A DNA stretch of 64,000 nucleotides from [Leptolyngbya] sp. PCC 7376 (GTDB lineage Bacteria > Cyanobacteriota > Cyanobacteriia > Cyanobacteriales > MRBY01). The notes under the pieces were generated by a model. That model ran no database searches. It was not told where the DNA came from and saw only the letters and a program-made list of their open reading frames with translations. The stretch lies in contig NC_019683.1 in the NCBI RefSeq assembly GCF_000316605.1, forward strand, positions 2,278,036 to 2,342,035, given 5' to 3'. Made by a program: the position numbers and the translations under genes. Numbering within the stretch: position 1 is the stretch's first letter; every line of letters begins with the position of its first letter. Shown here piece by piece: positions 47,664-60,156 of the stretch.

Positions 47664-48598
47664 AACGTGAGTTCGGGATAAGGAATAAAGGTTCTAATCA
47701 AGCTGAAGAGAAGGTTTCTTAGGCTGATGACAGTAGGCAATGAGACCGCAAAGCAAGTTGACACAAAAGTTCGCTGGACTGCGATGGCGAGAGTGTTCAA
47801 TCTGAGAAATATTCTTCAGTTGGTCAATGACGGTCTCAATTAAAGCTCGCTTACGAGCCAGCACTTTGTCACGCCAAAGCATCAGGTGATTCTTCATATT
47901 GCGACGAGGCTTAGCTAGAAGCCTCACATCATATTCTTCTTGTAAATACTGTGCCAGAGCTTGAGAGACGTAACCTTTATCGGCAAAGACTTTTCCCGAT
48001 AACCCTTTCAAAAGCTCCACTACCGGCTTTCTATCATTGGTGTTGCCAGGCGTGATTTTAACATTGAGTAATTCGCCATGGTCATTGATAACCAGATGTA
48101 GTTTGAAACCAAAGAACCAACCCACAGAGGTTTTACCTCGAGCGGCATGGCCATCAAAAACGTGATGTTGAGAGATGCGGCGATTGTGACAAACTTTGAT
48201 ACTTGAAGCTGATACCTGTGCATTGACCATAACAGTGCTGTAGGTAGACACATAGAGAGAGGTACTAACGTCGAAGGCATCCACTCCACAAAACGTTGGT
48301 CACTCACTGCTCTGGGAAAAGCTCCTCGCCAGTGATGACGCACATTGATGAGATAGAAATACTTGAAGTGACGATAATGAGATTGATCAAATGCAATCAA
48401 TATCGTCATTATCTCGCTTAAACTCAAGCTTCTTGAGCGACGTCGCCGCCGTTGTTTCGAGGCCAGCAGCTGTTGTTGCCATTGAGGTTCGAAGACTTGG
48501 CAGAAATCATCAACGGCACAAAACAAAGGCTCTAGACTGGTCATCAACTTCCACAATATGCACTTTCTCCTTTTTCTTTCTTATCCCGAACTCACGTT
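47664..48598 (-). mobile_element. IS982-family element copy 2
   Basis: Ends AACGTGAGTTCGGGATAAG (47664-47682) and CTTATCCCGAACTCACGTT (48580-48598) are perfect inverses; the length is 935 bp. It carries a transposase gene with the same frame defects as copy 1. No target duplication is apparent: the left flank ends CTACAGT and the right flank begins TATTAG. The right end lies two bases after the stop of the LRR-TPR-CHAT gene. It cuts an IS1-like fragment on its left. Confidence 0.88.
47694..48544 (-). pseudogene. IS982-family transposase with shared frameshifts
   Basis: On the minus strand [20 protein letters not shown] starts one frame and runs to about 48262. The family sequence [17 protein letters not shown] continues in a second frame, and [20 protein letters not shown] onward in a third, to TAG near 47694. 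The two shifts (CT-repeat expansion at about 48255-48262, and a deletion near 48205 that removes the expected D-S-T) also occur in copy 1. The N-terminal shift of copy 1 is absent here. With the first catalytic Asp missing, the product should be inactive. Confidence 0.85.
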
Positions 48599-48600
48599 TA

Positions 48601-51345
48601 TTAGAGTGATTCACCAATAAGAGTTGGTGCTGCCCAGAGATTTGGGGTTGCCCAGAGTGCTGGGTCATCGGGGTCTTCGGCAAATTCGAGTAGGGTTGCA
48701 AGCATTGCCTGTCGGAGAGCGATCGCCTTATCTCCAGATTGGTCGAGTTGTTGATAAAACTCTTGCATCAGAAAAGCAGTGGAATCGTCAGGGATTTTCC
48801 AAAGAGTAACAATAATGCTGGGAGTTCCAGCGGCAATGAAGGAGCGAGACAGGCCAATAACACCGTCACTTTTAATGTCTCCTTGGGCAGTATCACAGGC
48901 GCTGAGCACCACGAGATCGGCGACCAGTTTTAAGTCGAGAATTTCGTTGGAAGTAAGGTAACCCAAGTCGGTTTCGGTAGGGGCTAAGGCCAAAGCTCCG
49001 GGGGTTCCTAATCCGGCAACATCTTCCAATAATCCATGGGTGGCAATGTGCACAATTCGGGCACTAGAAATGTCTGTCAGAATTTGTTCCTTCGTCGCTT
49101 GTTTTCCGGTGATGGCATTACTTTTAAGGAAATCGGCAATATCCAAGGCTTCCTGTTCTGCGCCGGATAATGGCGATAAGGTTGTGCCCGTTTGCAAGTT
49201 GATTGGCATCTCGGGATTGCCTAACACTAAATCCTTGGCAGCTTCTGGATTACGAGGAAAACCTGCAATCAGATTATGTTCTGGTTTTTTGGCGGCATTG
49301 GCTAGTTTTTGTTGGCGGGTCAGTTCCAAGGCCTGAATTGATGGCGAGGTAAGAATTGTATGGTCTTGGATGAGGTAATGCTCTTCAGCATCTAGGAGCG
49401 CCACAAAGGGAACAAGAAATAGCGAACCTTGGGGGATGAAAACAACCTTTTGATTTTCGTCGGAGGGTAAAAATTCAGCGATCGGTGCAATCAGTATTTC
49501 ATGGAGGGCTTGTAGTTCATCAACGGGATAATACGGCTCGATAAACATCCCATCGCGGCTAGCTTGTACTAAGTCATCAATATCTTGGTTGGCGATATCA
49601 ACCTGTCGAAAATCAATTTCTCCCGTGGGATTAATGACCCAAATATTGAGGTCATCACCAATGATGGAATATTCCACCAAAGTTGAGTCTTGCTCGGCAG
49701 CGATCGCCTTCAATTGCTCAACAGTCGGTGGCTCGGTAGATGGAGGATTATCTTTGAAATTCGTAGCAAGTAATTCGATAAAGGCTCTGGCTCGACCCCG
49801 CTCGGCGATCGCCAAAGCTTCGGATGTTTTCCCTTGGGCAATTAAAACTTGTTGGAGTGTTTTGAAAGTTTCGTTTTGTAGCTCGGATAGAGATACTTTG
49901 TATTCGTCTTGGAGGCCGGGACGCAGAGCTTCCCAAGTTTCAATGGCTTCTAATAAAACAGTTTCTGATGCAGATAATTTTTCTTGGGATAATAAGCTAG
50001 TTCCCATGGAATTGAGAGTGCTACCAACCCCTTTTTTATTGCCAATGTTTGCGTGAATTTCTAAGGCTTTTTCATAGGTGGCGATCGCCTGATCATGGTG
50101 TTCTAATGCTTGCTGGGCATTGCCAATATAGGTAAGAGAGCTAGCGATCGCCGACTGATCACCGAGTTCTTCGGCAAGGGTTAAAGCAGTTTGAAAATAG
50201 GTGAGGGCTTCTGCTGCACTATTTTGTTTTAGGCGAGCATCTCCAATAATGCTCAGGGATAGACGAGTGCCTGCAATACGTCGTTTATCTCCGAGTAAAC
50301 CAGCCTCAAATACGCCTTTAGTTTTTTCAAATCGCTCTAATGCTGAACTCGCACTGGCGATCGCCGCATCATAATTCCCGAGCTGGATTTCCACCAAGGC
50401 CAAATTATTTTCTAAATCTCCTTGGTCGAGAAAGGCGAATAAAGGATTCGTATCAAAATCAAAACCCCCCGTACCAGAGTTATATTCTTCTTGTTTCACC
50501 AAAGCCATTTCAATTGCTTCTTTAGCGGCATTAAGTTGACCAATTTGTTGATAAAGATTACTCAAATTGCCATAGGAAATAATTAGTCCGCCAGTATCTC
50601 CTAGATTCTCCCGGAGCTGAATACTTTTTCTGTAAGTCAGGGTCGCATTAGCATAATTCCCAAGGTTGGTATGGGTATCAGCAATACGGGTTAACATCCG
50701 CGCCATTCTGACTTGATCACCATTCTGAGTATAAATTTCTAATGCATCTTGAAAATGACCTAAAGCACTGGGGAAATCACCATCTTTGTAAGCTGCTTCA
50801 CCGAGAGAAAAAACATCCGTATCTCCGCCAGCGAGCCCTGTAATATCATCACTAAAAACACAAACTCTTGCATTCGGTAACGGGCAAATTTTCTGTTTAA
50901 TCGGATTATCTAAAAAGCTTGCCATGCTCAAATTTGTGAGCGGTGCTAGGGCACGAATATCAGTAATTTGATTCATCCCCAAATCCAAACTAGTGAGATT
51001 CGTGAGTTTGGCGATCGCCGACACATCAGAAATGTCGTTATCCAACAACAGCAACATCTGCAACTGCGTTAAAGTCCCAATCGGCCGCACATCGCGAATA
51101 TTTTGACCGGGCAAGGCAAGTAACGGTACTCCGCTGAGTAGCGTTTGAGCAGTGTCGCAATCCGTCGTTCCCACCTGTCCCAGAAGCACCTGCACCGTAT
51201 GGCGGGCATCCTCTGAAATCTGGTCTTGGTTTTGGCACCATTCCGCAAAGGTTTGGTAGTCAGGAGTCGCATTCGTCGGAGCAGTAACACTCACACAGGC
51301 GATCGCACTTAAACACAGACTAGCGGCGGAGAACTTAGAATTCAT
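48601..51345 (-). CDS. exported LRR-TPR-CHAT protease-like protein
   Basis: 914 residues: a signal peptide (to about 27, ending APTNA); leucine-rich repeats at about 75-150 (LTQLQMLLLLDNDISDVSAI, NLTSLDLGMNQITDIRAL); at least seven TPRs at about 180-480; and a CHAT caspase-like domain at about 590-910. Catalytic candidates are His770 in IVHIATHG and Cys817 in VVLSACDTAQG. An LRR-TPR-CHAT order with a secretion signal is unusual. DUF928 lies 62 bp upstream and is probably co-transcribed. CHAT proteins are peptidases in several conflict systems; here an extracytoplasmic role is inferred. Confidence 0.9.
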   Translation of the reverse strand: MNSKFSAASLCLSAIACVSVTAPTNATPDYQTFAEWCQNQDQISEDARHTVQVLLGQVGTTDCDTAQTLLSGVPLLALPGQNIRDVRPIGTLTQLQMLLLLDNDISDVSAIAKLTNLTSLDLGMNQITDIRALAPLTNLSMASFLDNPIKQKICPLPNARVCVFSDDITGLAGGDTDVFSLGEAAYKDGDFPSALGHFQDALEIYTQNGDQVRMARMLTRIADTHTNLGNYANATLTYRKSIQLRENLGDTGGLIISYGNLSNLYQQIGQLNAAKEAIEMALVKQEEYNSGTGGFDFDTNPLFAFLDQGDLENNLALVEIQLGNYDAAIASASSALERFEKTKGVFEAGLLGDKRRIAGTRLSLSIIGDARLKQNSAAEALTYFQTALTLAEELGDQSAIASSLTYIGNAQQALEHHDQAIATYEKALEIHANIGNKKGVGSTLNSMGTSLLSQEKLSASETVLLEAIETWEALRPGLQDEYKVSLSELQNETFKTLQQVLIAQGKTSEALAIAERGRARAFIELLATNFKDNPPSTEPPTVEQLKAIAAEQDSTLVEYSIIGDDLNIWVINPTGEIDFRQVDIANQDIDDLVQASRDGMFIEPYYPVDELQALHEILIAPIAEFLPSDENQKVVFIPQGSLFLVPFVALLDAEEHYLIQDHTILTSPSIQALELTRQQKLANAAKKPEHNLIAGFPRNPEAAKDLVLGNPEMPINLQTGTTLSPLSGAEQEALDIADFLKSNAITGKQATKEQILTDISSARIVHIATHGLLEDVAGLGTPGALALAPTETDLGYLTSNEILDLKLVADLVVLSACDTAQGDIKSDGVIGLSRSFIAAGTPSIIVTLWKIPDDSTAFLMQEFYQQLDQSGDKAIALRQAMLATLLEFAEDPDDPALWATPNLWAAPTLIGESL

Positions 51346-51407: not shown

Positions 51408-52139
51408 TTATTCCGGAAGTATTGCAGTATCAGGTTCCATCGGCATCAGCTCTGGCAGCAACGGAACACCCACAAAATCATTTAATTCCACTGATTCGAG
51501 CAGATTGTCCACTGCAGTTTGACCTTCGTTATATGCGGCATTAAGAGCGTCATACCATAGCCCCATATCGGCCAGCTCAGTGGCGCTTTGCTCTGAAATA
51601 TCAATATCCGTTAAACGATGAATCCAACCATTGGTTTTGAGATCAGTGCTGCGATCCTCTGCATCACACACCACGTTGAAATACCACTGATACGCAATCG
51701 GTTTACCTGTCGTATTTGTGCCAGCTTCGAGGGCAATATCTTCTGGGAGAGCGATCGCCACGACACCCGCTTCAGTTGGTGCTGCAAATTGCGCTTTGTG
51801 AATTGATTTACGGCCTTTAAAAATCGAAAACTCTACATAATCAGCGCTTACTTCTGGCAGGTAAACATAAAATTCAGGATTTGCGCTACCTGTGAGGGGC
51901 ATTCCAAACGCTTCACCGGGAAGCAAAGAAGCGAGTTTGATGTCTCCTGTCGAACAGTCACCACTGGCACGAGGGGGAGGCAGACGACGACGATCAGGAA
52001 CGGCAGCACCAAAGGGTGCTCTAAAGGCTTGTGCTATCAGTTGTGGCGGTGTTGTCCTAGCTTGAGCTGGCATCATGCCAATTACCTGAGCGAACACGAG
52101 CAGAGAAAGAGGTAGAGATTTCACAATGGCATTCAACAT
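51408..52139 (-). CDS. DUF928 domain protein, exported
   Basis: 243 residues from ATG 52139, with a signal peptide (MLNAIVKSLPLSLLVFAQVI to about ARTT) and a mature part with FYVYLPEVSADYVEFSIFKG, AIALPEDIALEAGTNTTGKP and YQWYFNVVCDAEDRS. This is the DUF928 pattern, with two cysteines in the mature protein. DUF928 genes often neighbour CHAT and secretion genes in cyanobacteria. It lies 62 bp upstream of the CHAT gene. An earlier start at 52187 would give a hydrophobic but atypical leader. Confidence 0.88.
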   Translation of the reverse strand: MLNAIVKSLPLSLLVFAQVIGMMPAQARTTPPQLIAQAFRAPFGAAVPDRRRLPPPRASGDCSTGDIKLASLLPGEAFGMPLTGSANPEFYVYLPEVSADYVEFSIFKGRKSIHKAQFAAPTEAGVVAIALPEDIALEAGTNTTGKPIAYQWYFNVVCDAEDRSTDLKTNGWIHRLTDIDISEQSATELADMGLWYDALNAAYNEGQTAVDNLLESVELNDFVGVPLLPELMPMEPDTAILPE

Positions 52140-52196
52140 AGTCACAACAAAAAGCACAATATTTAATACAACAAACGGGGCAAGCAATCCGGCGAG

Positions 52197-52413: not shown

Positions 52414-52878
52414 ATGATTGAACCTGTTACTGCAACTATTGCGACGTCAGTCGCCACCATTTTGTTCACGAAAGCGCTCGAAAAGACTGGTGAAAATCTG
52501 GGGGATATGGCTTCTGAGCAAATAGGGAAACTCTGGGATGCGGTGCGGGCAAAGTTTCAGGCGGAAGATGTAGCGGGGAAAATCACAAAAGCAGAAGCTG
52601 ATCCTTCTGAGAAAAATGTTGGGCGTTTTCAAAGTGAACTGGAGGAATTGCTGGAAGATGATGGAGAATTTCTCGCGGAACTCCAAGGGATTTTGGCGGC
52701 ATTAGAAGGGGACGCTCAGGTGAAACAGGTGTTGCTAAAAAATATCGATGTGGCTGGGGATGCGGAAATTGGTGATATGAGCCAATCCAGTTCTGGGGGC
52801 AATGTCAGTCAGGAAGCGATTACAGATGTGAAGGTGGGCGGCAATCTCAAAATTGGCAATGTCGATCAGCAAGGCTAA
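52414..52878 (+). CDS. putative NLR-paired effector with hydrophobic N-terminal helix and two amyloid-like motifs
   Basis: 154 residues. The first 25 (IEPVTATIATSVATILFTKA) form a hydrophobic, weakly amphipathic helix without a cleavage site. The acidic middle (55-105) is helical. The C-terminus has two 12-residue motifs, VAGDAEIGDMSQ (113-124) and VGGNLKIGNVDQ (141-152), separated by a Ser/Gly linker. The next gene's product starts with VHGNLTVGDITQ. This layout (membrane-targeting helix domain plus C-terminal amyloid motif shared with an NLR) matches the Bell-type effectors described with bacterial amyloid signalling sequences. Membrane-permeabilising action is therefore inferred. The start ATG 52414 has no strong binding site. 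Confidence 0.75.
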   Translation: MIEPVTATIATSVATILFTKALEKTGENLGDMASEQIGKLWDAVRAKFQAEDVAGKITKAEADPSEKNVGRFQSELEELLEDDGEFLAELQGILAALEGDAQVKQVLLKNIDVAGDAEIGDMSQSSSGGNVSQEAITDVKVGGNLKIGNVDQQG

Positions 52879-52884
52879 TCAAAA

Positions 52885-52982
52885 ATCCTTCCCTAGGGAA
52901 GGTGCCCGAAGGGTGGAAGGGGTTCGATCAGTTATGTAACCCACGGAGAACCCACCCCTAACCCCTCCCAAGAGGGGATTTG
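52885..52982. repeat. intergenic palindromic repeat between effector and NLR genes
   Basis: The stretch holds TCCTTCCCTAGGGAAGG near its left end and ACCCCTCCCAAGAGGGGAT near its right. Both are palindromic, the latter typical of dispersed cyanobacterial intergenic repeats. The middle contains GTGCCCGAAGGGTGG. The hairpins could lower expression of the downstream gene or stabilise mRNA. A terminator role is unlikely, because no T-run follows. Confidence 0.6.
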
Positions 52983-52991
52983 GAGCAAAGG

Positions 52992-55355
52992 ATGACAGAA
53001 TTTGACGCGCAGAAAAAGATAATTCAAAAGGCGATTAGTGACATTGTTGTTCACGGTAATCTGACGGTGGGGGACATCACCCAGATTATTAATCTGCCGC
53101 AGCCAGAACGGTTTATCCCAGAGGAAACCCCTGCCAATTTGCTGACCAGCAACACCGTAAAGTTTGTGGGTCGAGAAAAGAAACTCATCGAACTTCATGA
53201 TCTGCTGCGCTCACGTAATGCGGTGATGGTGACAGCTTTGGCGGGGATGGGCGGTGTCGGAAAAACGGAACTGGCAACGCAATATGCTTGGCTCTATTAC
53301 CTCACGGAAGCTTATCCGGGGGGGATCTGTTGGGTGCGATCGCGGAATGAAGATATTGGTCTACAGATTACGGGATTTGCGCGGGAAAAGTTTGGGCTGA
53401 ATATTCCTGATGCGCTCACTGATCCAGTAGCGCGGGTAAAACATTGCTGGAATCGTTGGTTGGCAGGAAATGTGCTGGTCGTGTTTGATGATGCGGCAGA
53501 TTATCAGAAGATTATCCCCTATCTGCCTCAAGAGCCTCGGTTTAAGGTGCTGGTGACGACGCGGCTAGATTTGGATTTGCCGAAACTGAACCTGAATGTG
53601 CTGGACGAAGACGAAGCATTGCAATTGCTAGGGGAATGGATCGGGGCGGCTCAGCTAGCGGAACAGAAAGAAGACGGGAAAGAATTGGCATTGCGGTTGG
53701 GCTATTTGCCGTTAGCCTTGAACTTGGTTGGGCGCTATGTGCGAAAACGAAGAATTTCTTTGGCAGAAATGCTCGATAGGTTGGCAAAAAAAGGCTTAGA
53801 GCATCCAGCATTGGATGTAGACAAAAACGATAAAACTTGGACGTTACAGATTGAACGGGGAGTCAAGGCGGCGTTTGAGTTGAGTTGGGCGGAATTGTCG
53901 GACAGTGCGAAGGTACTGGGGATGCTGTTGGGAATTTTTGCACAGGCTGTGATTCCGTGGGAACTGCCAGAAAAGATATTAGTCTCGCTCGATCAGGCAG
54001 TTGAAGATATTGAAGATGCACGATTAGAGCTAACAAATTTACATTTACTTCAACAACAACAGAATTGCTTTCTATTGCATCAATTAATCCGAGAATTCAT
54101 GCAGAGAAAGTTGACTACACCGAATTATCAAGATTGGAGATCTCAATTAAGACGAAAAGTTGTCATGTTAATGGTTGAACAAAGTAGAGAGAACATTTAT
54201 GCAACATTAACGTTACAACAATTAAAACATATAGAAAAGCTTATCCCTCATCTCAAAGAAGTAGCAAGAGAATATTTAGACTTATTTCTTGATGAAGATC
54301 ATGGAATCATGTGGATTCATGTAGGATTAGCTAGATTTTACAAAAATCAAACCCAGTACGTAGATACAGAATATTGGTATGAAAAATGTTTAGAGATAGT
54401 AACAGAAAGATTTGGAGAGAGTCATATTGATGTAGCAACTAGTCTAAATAACTTAGCTGATTTTTGCCGATTAAAAGGCGATTATCACAAAGCTGAAGCT
54501 CTTCATTTACGCTCATTAGAGATTACTGTGAAAATATTAGGAGAAGAGGATTTAGAGACAGCTAAAAGTACGCATAATCTAGCATTGACTTATCGAGCTC
54601 AAGGCCATTTTCAGAAAGCAGAATTTTATTTTTTGCGCTCACTTTCTATCTTTGAAAGACAATTAGACTCCGAACATCTTTTGATAGCAACAAACCTATC
54701 TAATTTATCTGAACTATATCTCTACCGAAAACTCTATATGAAAGCAAGACCTTATGTGTTGCGCTCACTTGAAATTAGAGAAAAAAAGCTAGTAAAAAAC
54801 CATCCTGATATAGCTATTAGCTTAAACTCCTTAGGAAACATATATCATTTCCAGAGGAAATATGCACAAGCAGAAGAGTTATTATTGCATTCTTTATTAA
54901 TCTTGGAAGAAAATTTTGGCAAAGAGCACCTTTATAATGCAGCAATTCATGTTAGTTTGGGAGCTTTATATACTACGCAAAAGCGTTACTCTGAAGCAGA
55001 GTCACACATACTAAACTCACTACTCATTAGGCAAAAGAAACTGGGGGGTAGTCACCCCGATATTGCTAATAGCTTAATCAATCTAGGAACTATTTATTAT
55101 TCTCAAGGAAATAAAAAGAAAGCATTGGATTCATATCATCAAGCTTTGTCTATATTAAAAACTTCTCTGGGGAATAGTAATCCTGAAACACTCACAGCTC
55201 AGAAGAATATAAGCAGATTACAAAGATTAGATTCTGTAGGAGGAAAAGTTTTTATATTTCTCATCACTCTCCCGATAGTTCCTTTGTATTTATGTTGGCA
55301 GTTACTTCGCGTAATACTTCAGGCTTTATTTTCTTTACTAAGGCTCAGGATTTAA
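52992..55355 (+). CDS. NB-ARC/TPR NLR-like STAND ATPase
   Basis: 787 residues from ATG 52992. Residues 1-36 hold the shared motif VHGNLTVGDITQ (20-31). NB-ARC: P-loop GMGGVGKT (85-92), Walker B VLVVFDD (161-167), RNBS-B-like KVLVTTR (185-191), GLPL-like GYLPLAL (237-243). Residues about 440-740 are Tpr_12-type repeats, each about 42 residues (for example DVATSLNNLADFCRLKGDYH). The last 35 residues are hydrophobic (KVFIFLITLPIVPLYLCWQL) and may anchor in a membrane. ATG 52992 is favoured over TTG 52980. From about 54,000 the DNA becomes distinctly AT-rich. The trigger sensed by the TPRs is unknown. Confidence 0.9.
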   Translation: MTEFDAQKKIIQKAISDIVVHGNLTVGDITQIINLPQPERFIPEETPANLLTSNTVKFVGREKKLIELHDLLRSRNAVMVTALAGMGGVGKTELATQYAWLYYLTEAYPGGICWVRSRNEDIGLQITGFAREKFGLNIPDALTDPVARVKHCWNRWLAGNVLVVFDDAADYQKIIPYLPQEPRFKVLVTTRLDLDLPKLNLNVLDEDEALQLLGEWIGAAQLAEQKEDGKELALRLGYLPLALNLVGRYVRKRRISLAEMLDRLAKKGLEHPALDVDKNDKTWTLQIERGVKAAFELSWAELSDSAKVLGMLLGIFAQAVIPWELPEKILVSLDQAVEDIEDARLELTNLHLLQQQQNCFLLHQLIREFMQRKLTTPNYQDWRSQLRRKVVMLMVEQSRENIYATLTLQQLKHIEKLIPHLKEVAREYLDLFLDEDHGIMWIHVGLARFYKNQTQYVDTEYWYEKCLEIVTERFGESHIDVATSLNNLADFCRLKGDYHKAEALHLRSLEITVKILGEEDLETAKSTHNLALTYRAQGHFQKAEFYFLRSLSIFERQLDSEHLLIATNLSNLSELYLYRKLYMKARPYVLRSLEIREKKLVKNHPDIAISLNSLGNIYHFQRKYAQAEELLLHSLLILEENFGKEHLYNAAIHVSLGALYTTQKRYSEAESHILNSLLIRQKKLGGSHPDIANSLINLGTIYYSQGNKKKALDSYHQALSILKTSLGNSNPETLTAQKNISRLQRLDSVGGKVFIFLITLPIVPLYLCWQLLRVILQALFSLLRLRI

Positions 55356-55409: not shown

Positions 55410-57431
55410 TTAATGACCAGGCATAAAGAGCCACCAAGGAGTCGGTTGAGTTTCCCAAAGTTTGATTGTGCGGTCATAACTCCCGCTGGCAATAGTCTTC
55501 CCATCAGGGCTAAATTTCACAACCATGACCGGCGCGGCATGACCTCGGAGAGTTTTTAATTCTTCGGCGGTTTTAACATCCCAGAGTTTAATGGTGTGGT
55601 CATAGGCACTACTCGCCAAGAGTTCACCATCAGGACTATAGTCCAAGCCATAAATCGGTTGGTTATGCCCTAGTAAAGTCTTCTTCACCGAGCCACTACG
55701 CCAATCCCAAAGTTTGATGGATAAATCGTAGCTACTACTGGCGATCGCCTTGCCATCTGGACTAAATGCGAGGTTCAAAACAGAATCACGATGGTCTGCT
55801 AGCTCAACTTCTAATTCGCCATTGTTCACCCGCCAGAGTTTAACGAGGGTATCAGCGCCACCACTTGCCACAAAGTTCCCACTGGGATGGAAGGCGATCG
55901 CCCGAATGCCCTGTTCATGACCGACGAAATTTGTGGGTAATTCGTTTCCGGTGGCAGCATCCCAAAGTTTTAATTGGCCGTCATCGCTGCCACTAGCAAG
56001 GGTTTGGCTGTCTGGACTAAAAACCAAACTGGTAACTTCTGCGCCATGGCCTGTCAAAACTTGAGGTGTTGTACCCGGTGGTTGGTTGGCATCCCAGAGA
56101 TAAATGGAATTGTTCGCTCCGACTGTGGCAATCGCCCGACCGTTAGGACTGTAGGCCACCGCGCTAAATTGGGTGATATCGCTGGGTTCATAGGGGAATT
56201 CTTCTTCTCGCGCCACAATATTCCAAGCGGATACGACAAAATCATCGCCGCCACTGGCCACAAATTGATTATCGGGACTTAGGGCAATGGAACGGACTTC
56301 GGCGATGCCCCCGGTATCTTTTTCTTTCCTGAGCGTAAGGGTTTCGCGGCCCGTTTCGGGACTCCATAATTTCACCGTGTAATCGCCGCTGGCTGTTGCT
56401 AAAGTTTTGCCATCGGGCGTAAAGGCCACCTCAAAAACTTCGTCATAATGTCCCAAAAATGTGTGGATTAATTTATCGGTTTCGAGGCTCCATAGTTTGG
56501 CAGTATTGTCAGCGCTTGCCGTTGCTAAGGTGGTGCCATCGGGACTGAAAGAAAGGCTGGCGATCGCCCCAAAATGCCCTTCGATATCGGTGGGGATTTC
56601 CTGAAAGGTTTCAAGATTCCAAAGTTTAACGATGCCCTGTTCATCACCACTAGCAAGCTGCGACCCGTCGGGACTGAAATCCAAACCACGCAGACCATAG
56701 TAATGACCTTGCAGATCAGCAATTTTGCCCCCAGACTCTAAATCCCAAAGTTGAATATCTGGAATTAGAGTTGTGCTGCTGGCAATGGTTGCACCGTCGG
56801 GACTAACGCTAATGCGAAAGACGAGGAATCCGGTATCAATTACTTGTTTTTCCGTTGCCGTCGCCACATCCCACACCCGCACCGTGCCATCGACGCTACC
56901 ACTCACCAAACTTTGACCATCAGCGGTAAATTCCAGATCTAAAATCTCATTGCCATGTCCCACCAATGTCTGCACAATTTGCCGGGTGCGCGTATCCCAC
57001 AACGCAATCTGATAATCTCTCGTCACACTGGCTAAAAGCTGACCATCTGGACTGTAGGCGATCGCCCAAACCTCATCAAAGCCTTCGTGGATAGTCGCGT
57101 TTTCCCCAGTTGGCAAATCCCATGTTTTATAGGTCAGATCATCACTCCCCGTAAATAGCGTCTGACTATCAGGACCAAAATCTAGGGACAAAATATCGTC
57201 GTTGTGACCCATCAAAATATTCGGCACTTCCGCAACATTCACCGTGTTATCTGGCTGAATAATACGACGAGACTCTTCGCGATCTTCTAGTCGACCAACC
57301 AGACTAATCAATCCCGCAAAAAAGGCGATCGCCCCACAGGAAACCAACAAAATCCTCAGTGGAAATTTTGAGTTGGAATCCGTTGAATTTTGGTTTTCCG
57401 TTGCCACATTAACCATAAGAAAATTGAGCAA
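55410..57431 (-). CDS. membrane-anchored protein with 14 WD40 repeats
   Basis: 673 residues: one membrane segment near residues 25-46 (LRILLVSCGAIAFFAGLISL), a charged linker, then 14 WD40 repeats (pattern GH...FSPDG..LASGS.D..IKLW), enough for two seven-bladed propellers. Signal-anchor topology would place the propellers outside the cytoplasm. The start may be ATG 57416 instead of 57431. The stop at 55410 is 54 bp from the stop of the convergent NLR gene. Propellers are scaffolds; the partner is not visible, but the WWW-repeat gene upstream ends 49 bp before its start. Confidence 0.9.
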   Translation of the reverse strand: MLNFLMVNVATENQNSTDSNSKFPLRILLVSCGAIAFFAGLISLVGRLEDREESRRIIQPDNTVNVAEVPNILMGHNDDILSLDFGPDSQTLFTGSDDLTYKTWDLPTGENATIHEGFDEVWAIAYSPDGQLLASVTRDYQIALWDTRTRQIVQTLVGHGNEILDLEFTADGQSLVSGSVDGTVRVWDVATATEKQVIDTGFLVFRISVSPDGATIASSTTLIPDIQLWDLESGGKIADLQGHYYGLRGLDFSPDGSQLASGDEQGIVKLWNLETFQEIPTDIEGHFGAIASLSFSPDGTTLATASADNTAKLWSLETDKLIHTFLGHYDEVFEVAFTPDGKTLATASGDYTVKLWSPETGRETLTLRKEKDTGGIAEVRSIALSPDNQFVASGGDDFVVSAWNIVAREEEFPYEPSDITQFSAVAYSPNGRAIATVGANNSIYLWDANQPPGTTPQVLTGHGAEVTSLVFSPDSQTLASGSDDGQLKLWDAATGNELPTNFVGHEQGIRAIAFHPSGNFVASGGADTLVKLWRVNNGELEVELADHRDSVLNLAFSPDGKAIASSSYDLSIKLWDWRSGSVKKTLLGHNQPIYGLDYSPDGELLASSAYDHTIKLWDVKTAEELKTLRGHAAPVMVVKFSPDGKTIASGSYDRTIKLWETQPTPWWLFMPGH

Positions 57432-57480: not shown

Positions 57481-60156
57481 TTATTCTTCGGACAGATAAA
57501 CATTGGGGGAACCATCCTCCGCCAAAACTGCCGGTATCTCGATATGAATGGTGTGCCACATAATTGTTGCGTCATGGAGATTGTGCTCCGGTTCTTGAAC
57601 TAGCCGTTCATAGCAAACCTCATAGGGTGGCTTCGACGTATATTGCCGCGCTTGACCCCGCAGATTTTCCTCTACATGGCTGGCTAATTCCAAATAACAT
57701 TGCGCCGTTCCGCCATCGGCTTCTGTGGGTAAAGTGGCTTCAATTTCTGCCGCTTTTAAAAAGGCTTCATAGGCACTAAAAGAGAAATGCAACGCCCGTT
57801 CATCGAGTAATGGCTCTGGAATTTCATCAACTCCAACTTCATACTGAGCCACCGGGTAATATTGCTCAAGATTTGGAACCCAGGGATGTTCGGCATCCAG
57901 TTGCGCCCAGAAAAAGAGACCATAGTTAATGTAGGCATCTCGCAATAATTGTCGTTCTTCCGCGAGATAAAAATTGTCGGGGTTCGCCGCAGTAAAGTCA
58001 CGCAGTTGATTGAGTGCCGAATCGAGATAAATCCCCGCTTGGTGCAATGCTGTGGTGTCTTCCATCAGCTCTGTCCAACTGGCATCCTGCAATCCTTGCA
58101 ATAACATCACCCGCGCCAAACGAATGGTTGCCTCAGTATTTTCCGTTTCTACGCCAGTTTCGTATTGTTCTTGGGCTTTTTCCAGTTGACCCAGTTGCTC
58201 ATAAACTTTACCGAGGGATAAACTCAAAGCGGCTTTCGGAGCGGCTTTACGGTAAAACTTCGTGGCTTGGCGATATTCCCGTAACGCTTGGAGATAATCC
58301 CCTTGGCGGGCAAACTGATCACCCCGCGATTGATACCAAATCCCTAATTTCGGCAGGTTCACATTGGTACCGTAGGCTCCGAGAAAAATCACCGCAGAGA
58401 AACCGAACGCAAACCGCGAATTCCAGTTTGGCGGTAACCGCAAAGAAGCCAAAACATTTTCGATTGCCTTTTGGCCGTTTTTCGTTAAGGCTCCACCAGC
58501 TCCGGCGATTAGTGCTGCACCTTGGGCAATGAGTGTTCCATTCTGCACCGCATCGGAAATCACTGCACCATTCACCGGTTGTACCAATGCTTGGGTGGTC
58601 GTAGTCATAAAGGTTGCAGCCAATCCCAACAAACCTACTGCCGCTGCTGTCCAAACCCAATCAAAGAGAGAAACATTATCGTCGTCTCCTCCCAATAACG
58701 TTGGCTTGAGATGCCACCACCATTCGCCACCACCGCCTTTGAGACTTTTACGCCAGGATGCGAGTTGATTACCTTTGGCGATCGCCACCCGTTGTCTTTT
58801 TAACCTTTGATCTAGATCAATAATCTGGCGGGCGATCGCCTCTGGTACAGCGCTACTGTTATATTCCTCGACAATATCGCGAGCGAGCAAAACCTCTAGG
58901 ATCATTTCCCACGACGGACGAATCGTACTTTCGAGGGTTGTGATCGCCTTGTTGTAACGGTCAAGTGCTTGGGCAACTGGAGTTTCCGCTTCGGTGAGTC
59001 GCCACCACCAATTATCTTTAGGCTGGAGACTGTTTTTCCATTCATCGAGAATATCGTCGTCAGCAATCAGTTTTCCCTGTTGGCGCAGGCGATTATCCAG
59101 CTCAATAATTTGCGTCAATCGTTCAATAGGTGGCTGTTTTTGACCACTTTCGGCAGATTCGACCGCATCCCGCGCAAGTAAAACTTCCAGCAGTTCAGCG
59201 GAGGTGGGGGAAGGGGGTTCTTCGAGTTTACGGAGAGCCTGTTCATAACGATCAATTGCCTGATTCGGTAGCGGAATCGGATCGGTCAGTTGCCACCACC
59301 AATAGGTGCCGGGAATGTTTAACGACTGCTTCCATTCATCGAGGGTATTATCGACGGCGATCGCCTTGGCATGGGCTTTGAGACGATCATCGAGACGAAT
59401 AATTTTGGTGATATTTTCCGTGGGGAGGGGATTTTGACCTAACTTTGCCCGTTCCACCGAATCCCGCGCTTGCAACATTTCGAGGAGCTGCTCACTCTGG
59501 GGATTGGCTGTCGCATCCACCGCATTAATTGCCTGTTCATAGCGATCAATAGTTTGCAGCAGTAACGGTAATGGATTTGTAAATTCCCACCACCAATGAC
59601 TTTCCGGCGGCTTTAAATTTTCCTTCCAATCTTCTAACTTGCGATCATAGGAAATCGCCAGACCCAACGTTTTTAGTTGTTCATCAAGGTCAATAATTTC
59701 GGCGATCGCCTGCTTTGGTTTGCGGCGAATCTTGCCTAAAGCTTGCTCAATCTGATCGCGACTGGTGAGTACTTCTAATAAGGTGTTCGTAGTCGAGTTA
59801 GCCTGAGCAGTGACGATACTAACTCGATAGTTTTCGATAGCTTCTTCGAGAGAATGATCCGCATAATTTTCGAGAAACCACCACCAATATTGCGCTGGGA
59901 TATCGAGCGTTTGTCGCCATTGGCTGAGGTCTTCACACTGGGCGATCGCCGCCCGCTGATTTTTCAGAGCTTTATCTGCAACCACCAGCTCCCCAAAAAC
60001 AGCATCACTGCGATCACCACAATCCTGTTTCAATTGTTCAATTTCATTCCGTTGACGGAGAAGGGACAAGACAATATCAGGGTCTTCTGCCAAACGGTTA
60101 ACGGCTTCGGTATAGGCGGCGATCGCGGTGCGTAATGCTGCGGGAACTTCTGCCAT
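57481..60156 (-). CDS. five-WWW-repeat, membrane and TPR protein, new repeat family
   Basis: 891 residues. Five units of about 97 residues repeat from residue 20 to 490, each ending in a triple tryptophan: YWWWFL (91-93), HWWWEF (188-190), YWWWQL (286-288), NWWWRL (383-385) and EWWWHL (479-481). Other conserved parts are AIDRYEQAI, LLEVLLARDAVE and II-LD-RL. Three hydrophobic segments follow (about 503-520, 541-556 and 582-597), with TPRs at about 605-690 and a C-terminal unknown region. I do not recognise the repeat. The WD40 gene is next in the same direction, so it begins a probable operon; a scaffold role for the helical repeats is inference. Confidence 0.85.
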   Translation of the reverse strand: MAEVPAALRTAIAAYTEAVNRLAEDPDIVLSLLRQRNEIEQLKQDCGDRSDAVFGELVVADKALKNQRAAIAQCEDLSQWRQTLDIPAQYWWWFLENYADHSLEEAIENYRVSIVTAQANSTTNTLLEVLTSRDQIEQALGKIRRKPKQAIAEIIDLDEQLKTLGLAISYDRKLEDWKENLKPPESHWWWEFTNPLPLLLQTIDRYEQAINAVDATANPQSEQLLEMLQARDSVERAKLGQNPLPTENITKIIRLDDRLKAHAKAIAVDNTLDEWKQSLNIPGTYWWWQLTDPIPLPNQAIDRYEQALRKLEEPPSPTSAELLEVLLARDAVESAESGQKQPPIERLTQIIELDNRLRQQGKLIADDDILDEWKNSLQPKDNWWWRLTEAETPVAQALDRYNKAITTLESTIRPSWEMILEVLLARDIVEEYNSSAVPEAIARQIIDLDQRLKRQRVAIAKGNQLASWRKSLKGGGGEWWWHLKPTLLGGDDDNVSLFDWVWTAAAVGLLGLAATFMTTTTQALVQPVNGAVISDAVQNGTLIAQGAALIAGAGGALTKNGQKAIENVLASLRLPPNWNSRFAFGFSAVIFLGAYGTNVNLPKLGIWYQSRGDQFARQGDYLQALREYRQATKFYRKAAPKAALSLSLGKVYEQLGQLEKAQEQYETGVETENTEATIRLARVMLLQGLQDASWTELMEDTTALHQAGIYLDSALNQLRDFTAANPDNFYLAEERQLLRDAYINYGLFFWAQLDAEHPWVPNLEQYYPVAQYEVGVDEIPEPLLDERALHFSFSAYEAFLKAAEIEATLPTEADGGTAQCYLELASHVEENLRGQARQYTSKPPYEVCYERLVQEPEHNLHDATIMWHTIHIEIPAVLAEDGSPNVYLSEE

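Follow-up and report, generated by a model that had tools for sequence, protein, structure and literature searches.

The WWW gene at the locus

The window analyzed here, a stretch of 64,000 nucleotides from [Leptolyngbya] sp. PCC 7376 (NC_019683.1, positions 2,278,036 to 2,342,035), carries on its minus strand a gene whose product contains five successive units of about 97 residues, each ending in three consecutive tryptophans (WWW), followed by three predicted membrane helices and a predicted tetratricopeptide repeat (TPR) region. The gene and its parts are as follows, the units having been placed with a profile built partly from these same units.

57481..60156, minus strand: whole gene, with five WWW units, three membrane helices and TPR (ATG open reading frame, 891 amino acids (aa) plus stop)
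59869..60150, minus strand: WWW unit 1 (residues 3-96), most diverged of the five; WWW codons 59878-59886 (unit profile)
59578..59865, minus strand: WWW unit 2 (residues 98-193); WWW codons 59587-59595 (unit profile)
59284..59577, minus strand: WWW unit 3 (residues 194-291); WWW codons 59293-59301 (unit profile)
58993..59283, minus strand: WWW unit 4 (residues 292-388); WWW codons 59002-59010 (unit profile)
58705..58992, minus strand: WWW unit 5 (residues 389-484), adjoining the membrane part; WWW codons 58714-58722 (unit profile)
58357..58668, minus strand: predicted three-helix membrane module (residues ~497-600), one loop of which is basic and starts LTKNGQ (structure model, hydropathy, charge pattern of the family)
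57547..58356, minus strand: TPR domain (residues ~601-870), predicted extracytoplasmic, with Cys820 and Cys848 (Pfam TPR_12 at E 4.4e-5, below cut-off; predicted helices)

The triplets start at residues 91, 188, 286, 383 and 479 of the 891-aa protein, with spacings of 97, 98, 97 and 96, exactly as stated in an earlier description made from the letters of this DNA (hereafter the sequence-only reading). The AIDRYEQAI-like and LLEVLLARDAVE-like helices that it described were found again across the units, most poorly in unit 1, and we regard all five units as homologous, with WWW closing each one. Of 5000 shuffled versions of the protein, 139 contained at least one WWW. At the DNA level, the word encoding WWW, TGGTGGTGG, occurs seven times in the window, five of them inside the gene, and had a mean of 0.35 and a maximum of 3 occurrences in 100 dinucleotide shuffles of the window.

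Membership of the family defined here, WWW-TM-TPR (TM, transmembrane), requires a unit carrying ARD, LD and WWW, followed by three membrane helices and by a TPR region that has a Cys pair. The window protein fits this definition, with WWW, Arg and the Cys pair present; its units 2-5 read RD and LD, and unit 1 reads RN and AD. A five-unit relative in another genome (G008) is 61% identical across residues 71-881 of the window protein.

The WWW unit in domain libraries and in genomes

No named domain carrying the WWW signature was found in Pfam, NCBIfam, PHROGs or the PDB sequences, in agreement with the sequence-only reading, and none of the families there accounts convincingly for the unit. Scans of 25 units gave no convincing library match, the best E being 0.0024 in Pfam (one member), 0.0045 in NCBIfam (Cis13, two members) and 0.009 in PHROGs (one member), and the unit profile compared with all PDB sequences gave a best E of 1. 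For the window protein, Pfam and NCBIfam returned weak TPR matches at residues ~611-690 and other weak matches scattered along it. Structure searches, run on whole models rather than on the unit alone, returned lists filled by TPR and other helical-repeat proteins. Among the literature matches listed, from a search of titles and abstract openings covering few subscription journals, no paper dealt with the WWW repeat or the gene cluster.

An identity with Cis13 (NF053767), and hence with contractile injection, was considered and rejected. Cis13 is presented, in the excerpt of PMC8894136 available, as the membrane anchor of thylakoid-anchored contractile injection systems; it resembles the WWW protein in being a membrane anchor in cyanobacteria, and the sequence likeness is weak and confined to about 35 residues, two relatives scoring 11.2 and 15.0 bits where the cut-off is 370. 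Cis13 was not among the matches listed for the window protein, and no match in the window's genome exceeded the cut-off.

The unit profile including the Trps matched at least 37 of 386 genomes of the phylum (the window's own included), in 28 of 142 genera. Because circularity was to be avoided, the Trps were then removed from the profile. With this WWW-free profile, the search of cyanobacterial genomes suggested earlier matched at least 61 places in at least 38 of the 386 genomes, the genome counts of both profiles being lower bounds. The one place that it adds (G229) is a false match, by eye a plain TPR protein. The full window protein had a match at E≤1e-3 in 16 of 40 genomes, its own included, several of these being TPR-only or fragments. 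Carriers of the unit are found in Calothrix, Nostoc, Spirulina and Coleofasciculus, in cyanobacterial metagenome-assembled genomes (MAGs) and on one Nostoc plasmid; one more is a 7-kb contig filed under an Acidobacteria MAG. The window's genome holds two single-unit paralogues besides the window gene. We take the WWW unit to be a real, unnamed and widespread cyanobacterial domain, and a good candidate for a new named one.

A phage origin was also considered and rejected: a search of viral contigs, which reaches only sequences with the LEV..ARD motif, gave eight pattern matches and none of them is a relative.

Conservation of the Trp triplet

WWW was present in 96 of 99 distinct units of the fetched loci, a figure not wholly free of selection since some loci were first found with WWW-bearing queries; the tryptophans are thus conserved in relatives, as the sequence-only reading had expected. 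The three units without it belong to L069 (at a contig end), L065 (a broken frame, with a stop inside the Trp run) and L128. An earlier count, with 4 of 97 units lacking WWW, comprised the same three and L113, whose protein resembles ParB by eye. Across 93 aligned WWW units, the Arg of ARD and the Asp of LD were identical in all 93, as invariant as the Trps, and together with the triplet they make up the five best-conserved positions. In an alignment of 35 single-unit proteins running from the unit through the TPR (one row removed), WWW, R39, D64 and C366 were invariant.

The sequence-only reading had interpreted the regularly spaced triplets as a docking surface for lipid heads, a glycan or a partner protein. 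They could also form a structural cap, with the Trps packing on Arg and Asp within each helical bundle and the array acting passively, as a spacer or ruler from membrane to cytoplasm with no docking role of its own, a possibility to which we give clearly less than even odds. It would account for the joint conservation of Arg, Asp and WWW at the top of the 93 units and for the retention of WWW in single, array and stand-alone forms, and three consecutive Trps in a short helical turn presumably could not share one face. On the other hand, three invariant Trps exceed, in our judgement, what the core of a small bundle usually needs, a plain spacer would not require position-specific unit sequences at copy numbers of 1-5, and L128 without WWW retains most of the remaining unit.

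Two decayed loci were seen in passing. In Nostoc sp. LEGE 06077 (L065), an array-type WWW gene is broken into short frames. L127 (G005 contig C6, ~25.6 kb, from a genome of the same genus) contains only C-terminal fragments, one of 39 aa (79% identity) and one of 23 aa (78% identity), which lie in different frames, and is apparently a decayed copy of the window gene. Gene calling yielded no unit for L127 or L097; the latter carries one, yet lies outside the neighbor counts given below.

Single, array and stand-alone forms

The common form, one unit followed by three membrane helices and TPR, accounts for 44 of 56 genes, and the other 12 have 2-5 units. In the tree of 93 units, built from a short alignment and with a bootstrap not fully settled, 37 of the 41 units from multi-unit proteins grouped in one set (support 99/99). 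Outside it fell window unit 1, L109 unit 1 and both L079 units, window unit 1 being a long branch of unsure placement. Window units 2, 3, 4 and 5 paired one-to-one with the units of L076 (100/99, 100/99, 100/97 and 100/95, respectively), unit 4 being 80% identical between the two. This branching suggests that the array arose mainly by one expansion, its units being position-specific. In the MAG SBLK (L066), three multi-unit WWW genes are clustered (3, 3 and 2 units, the last reaching the locus boundary), which points to gene duplication.

Stand-alone WWW proteins occur in eight genomes, are mostly ~105-125 aa long and form their own clade (100/100), with top hydropathy over 19 residues of 0.62-1.04. 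Most of them stop shortly after WWWYLDVL-like letters.

L116-L123 (in G013, G280, G354, G009, G153, G011, G104 and G002, respectively): stand-alone loci, most ~100-125 aa

At L119, L120 and L122, the stand-alone gene is preceded, directly and on the same strand, by an unnamed gene encoding 127-130 aa, and the two may constitute a two-gene unit.

Membrane module, TPR domain and topology

The full-length model of the window protein (mean pLDDT 76.5, pTM 0.44), a prediction that the sequence-only reading had called for, contains the three membrane helices and the TPR region that it had placed after the repeats. The membrane helices span residues 497-525, 536-556 and 576-599, with low pLDDT at 534-541 and 547-557, and the ten-residue blocks holding the Trps have mean pLDDT of 53-68. 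Kyte-Doolittle maxima over 19 residues were 1.59, 1.28 and 1.23 for helices 1-3, hydropathy alone backing helices 2 and 3 only moderately. The three helices are clearer in the model of a single-unit relative, L082 (mean pLDDT 89.5), where the WWW domain, membrane helices and TPR are all present: helices at 2-22, 29-48, 54-69, 71-77 and 80-87 precede a short turn at WWW, the membrane helices begin at 104, 141 and 181, and TPR helices cover 226-417. Like the domain, its conservation and its expansion, this architecture was recovered by computation.

The best Pfam TPR score of the window protein was 24.0 against a cut-off of 30.1 bits, and that of the relative L074 was 43.9 against 26.8. Structural matches of the full-length window model were partial only (for instance with the TPR protein CTPR4E4, TMt 0.77). 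The TPR region of the L082 model could be superposed on both PilW and PilF (Z 16.4 and 16.2, root-mean-square deviation 3.0 and 2.9, 190 aligned residues); these alignments begin at L082 residues 206 and 203 and barely cover the WWW unit and the membrane module. Four WWW-TPR proteins (L077, L078, L098 and L105) have extended C-termini, L098 and L105 (~775 aa) forming their own branch, and Pfam finds only TPR-like repeats in L098.

Proteins of the HetF type share with the WWW protein a membrane segment and TPR, a cyanobacterial host and a link to CHAT, HetF of Anabaena having a CHAT-TM-TPR make-up according to the excerpt of PMC8406250 consulted. Unlike HetF, the WWW protein has no CHAT of its own, CHAT being encoded separately, and three predicted membrane helices instead of one; the window protein gave no CHAT or C14 match in Pfam at E up to 0.5.

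Among 35 relatives, the mean number of Lys and Arg residues was 0.03 in the loop between membrane helices 1 and 2 and 4.09 in loop 2. From this difference in charge, loop 2 and the N-terminal unit are predicted to be cytoplasmic and the TPR to lie outside. The TPR contains a Cys pair in 34 of 35 sequences of one alignment (A5) and in 18 of 20 of another (A3), corresponding to C820/C848 in the window protein; it is probably closed by a disulfide, which fits a location outside the cytoplasm. Charge bias and Cys pair together suggest that the WWW units are inside and the TPR outside the cytoplasm. The reversed arrangement, with WWW units outside and a cytoplasmic TPR, appears very improbable to us. 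The N-in orientation is itself read from sequence, and the segments flanking the three helices have nearly equal Lys and Arg counts (2.37 ahead of helix 1, 2.23 following helix 3), but the loop charges, the TPR Cys pair and the signal-like N-termini of neighboring gene products (see below) all speak against the reversal.

With this architecture, WWW might also act as an aromatic belt setting each unit on the membrane surface beside membrane helix 1, which is unlikely in our view. The L082 model places WWW (94-96) eight residues ahead of the helix (104-136) that turns into membrane helix 1. Of the 44 single-unit proteins, 24 have F or Y immediately after WWW, and the tail that follows WWW is mildly hydrophobic in some stand-alone proteins. 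However, WWW is kept in 29 inner units, up to ~400 residues away from the membrane helices, and in eight stand-alone proteins. In arrays, the residue after WWW is usually polar, and it is E, N, H or D in 11 of 12 membrane-adjoining units. We thus rejected a membrane belt as the sole reason for WWW, since inner and stand-alone units keep it; for the same reason, the lipid-head version of the docking proposal is weakened in so far as it was tied to the nearby membrane helices. Docking surface and structural cap are the two live options for WWW, the belt being disfavored.

c1 and CHAT neighbors of single-unit genes

Gene context was analyzed in 66 fetched loci and the window, neighbors being clustered by BLAST linkage. 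For 20 of 44 single-unit genes, the next gene downstream, in the same orientation, encodes a protein of ~360 aa, here called c1, with two invariant Cys (18 sequences) and C-terminal TPRs; the frames overlap in 13 of these 20 in our own gene calls (examples of c1 are L101:6146-7237, L106:8725-9876 and L074:5320-6471). Beyond TPR, Pfam gave only weak hints for c1 (fn3, DUF928). A homology between c1 and DUF928 was rejected, the HMMER hint (3 of 18 members, best E 0.0027) being unsupported by profile comparison, with four sequences on the DUF928 side.

For 16 of the 44 single-unit genes, a CHAT-cluster gene is found no more than four genes away. This cluster (c2) mixes CHAT-TPR and plain TPR proteins (no CHAT was among the best 25 Pfam rows of the 829-aa member at L075), hence CHAT was checked locus by locus, and the domain was confirmed in each by Pfam and profile matches. 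C14 caspase genes were found near 3 of the 44, the C14 domain being confirmed in each, L096 included. Two of the loci, L125 and L126, are near-identical in two genomes and not independent. The Acidobacteria-filed contig has the gene order CHAT-WWW-c1, with the CHAT domain confirmed.

The reverse count was made in 11 genomes selected for WWW loci, 10 of which hold WWW-c1 loci. Here c1 nearly always adjoins a WWW gene: 14 of 16 c1 genes sit at WWW loci, the fifteenth trails a family gene cut by a contig end, and the sixteenth, in the window's genome, has no WWW unit within the surrounding 19 kb. CHAT was found within 10 kb of at least 13 of the 16 c1 genes, against 1.05 expected at random, and none of 200000 simulations reached as high a value. 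The neighborhood links of single-unit WWW genes to c1 and CHAT are in this way established by computation. By a hydropathy rule of thumb, signal-like N-termini were found in 15 of 24 c1, 15 of 25 CHAT-cluster and four of four DUF928 proteins.

Neighborhood of the window gene

The genes that follow the window gene are:

55410..57431, minus strand: WD40 protein, 13 matched WD40 stretches, hydrophobic N-terminal stretch (Pfam WD40)
52980-55355, plus strand: NB-ARC/TPR protein (Pfam), following the 154-aa gene and before the WD40 gene
52414-52878, plus strand: 154-aa protein, no Pfam match, between the WD40 gene and the DUF928/CHAT pair
51408..52187, minus strand: DUF928 protein with a signal-like N-terminus (Pfam E 9.6e-25)
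48601..51345, minus strand: TPR-CHAT protein, N-terminus signal-like by eye (Pfam CHAT E 3e-63)

The WD40 gene is a probable operon partner of the window gene, and its hydrophobic N-terminal stretch a possible membrane anchor; at L076 and L071, too, a WD40 gene comes directly downstream in the same orientation. The DUF928 and TPR-CHAT genes form a pair and are possible members of the cluster. In the translation of the TPR-CHAT gene we read by eye HIATHG and LSACDT, which we take to be the His and Cys motifs of CHAT. Beside this gene, at 47694-48556 on the minus strand, two overlapping open reading frames look by eye like a split transposase, with a near-copy in L175, also by eye.

Pairs of DUF928 and TPR-CHAT genes occur in cyanobacteria, and that of the window is one of them. 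In the window's genome (G000), 6 of 15 DUF928 places are within 5 kb of a CHAT match, versus 1.07 expected at random; only the window gene, of the three WWW genes of this genome, lies near such a pair. At L076, the three genes next downstream of the WD40 gene are DUF928 genes (one confirmed by Pfam, and all three aligned with that of the window). WD40 and DUF928 genes are also the likeness between the window and a cluster of Nostoc NOSP7, which the excerpt of PMC5587647 at hand describes as five closely arrayed genes, for two WD40 proteins, a hypothetical protein, a CHASE2 sensor and DUF928.

Such neighbors raise the question of a role in conflict or cell death, with the WWW domain joining a cytoplasmic sensor to caspase-like CHAT/C14 effectors. 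We consider this doubtful. CHAT and C14 genes near 16 and 3 of 44 single-unit genes, respectively, are consistent with it, caspase-like and CHAT domains being bacterial defence effectors according to the part of PMC10907252 seen, and so is the NB-ARC/TPR gene within the window. In PADLOC-DB 2.0.0, the window WD40 protein matched HEAT-ARM_XIII (E 4.5e-38), the window NB-ARC/TPR protein matched TPR (E 1.4e-14) and the L106 C14 protein matched 'caspase'. However, similarity between repeats may be all that underlies the WD40 and TPR matches, and no PADLOC-DB 2.0.0 family matched the window protein, L082, c1, two CHAT proteins or the L119 stand-alone pair. Many partners moreover look exported, hence outside the cytoplasm, and carriage by mobile elements amounts to one relative on a plasmid and none among the viral-contig sequences with the LEV..ARD motif.

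Discussion

We favor, with a probability of about one half, the reading in which the WWW protein spans the membrane as a scaffold and couples WWW docking modules in the cytoplasm to a TPR/CHAT assembly on the other side; possibly it serves as membrane scaffold to a protease system not yet described. The ~97-residue unit would be a small all-helical cytoplasmic domain organized around the invariant Arg, Asp and C-terminal Trp triplet, and one to five such domains would be followed by the three membrane helices and by a TPR domain in the periplasm or thylakoid lumen. The outer TPR would work with exported partners, which in many single-unit loci would be c1 and TPR-CHAT caspase-like proteases; for the five-unit gene, the candidate partners would be the WD40 protein with its probable anchor and, less surely, DUF928 and CHAT. 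By docking a cytoplasmic partner, the WWW domains would position or gate the outer assembly, and an array would offer several binding sites per scaffold. Both the export of the partners and the formation of a complex we infer.

Several observations weigh against this scaffold model. L128 is a true family member that has lost WWW and kept most of the remainder of the unit, and the invariant Arg and Asp alongside WWW would fit a structural role of the Trps equally well. No c1 follows directly in 24 of 44 single-unit genes (one of them, L067, having no downstream gene in its locus), and the rule of thumb recognizes no signal-like N-terminus in 9 of 24 c1 and 10 of 25 CHAT-cluster proteins, wrongly called starts perhaps accounting for some of these. 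CHAT is abundant in the window's genome, with 36 matches at E≤1e-15 and 40 over the Pfam cut-off, and one of its three WWW genes is 55 kb away from the nearest CHAT. Among the 12 multi-unit genes, WD40 is directly downstream in three (window, L076 and L071), c1 in one, and a CHAT-cluster gene lies within four genes in none. The window gene itself has no c1, and its DUF928 and CHAT genes are set apart from it by the WD40 gene and two genes on the opposite strand; because of these intervening plus-strand genes, its link to DUF928/CHAT is weaker than that of single-unit genes to c1/CHAT.

A broader proposal, which we advance only tentatively, is that of an as yet undescribed envelope-spanning system of protease control in cyanobacteria, and perhaps in Acidobacteria. 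The state of a cytoplasmic signal protein docked by WWW would pass through the three membrane helices and the outer TPR to c1, as a dedicated exported partner, and to exported CHAT proteases, arrays of 2-5 units being multivalent and rewired to WD40 or other partners.

The WWW domain would be a new entry among named domains, unusual in its invariant Trp triplet, and a direct search for its ligand can make use of the stand-alone, single and array forms. In the 11 cyanobacterial genomes counted, CHAT genes number from 4 to 36 at E≤1e-15, and no general account of the control of their products is known to us. A membrane scaffold with a nearly dedicated partner, encoded beside some of these CHAT genes, would offer a testable entry point to CHAT control.

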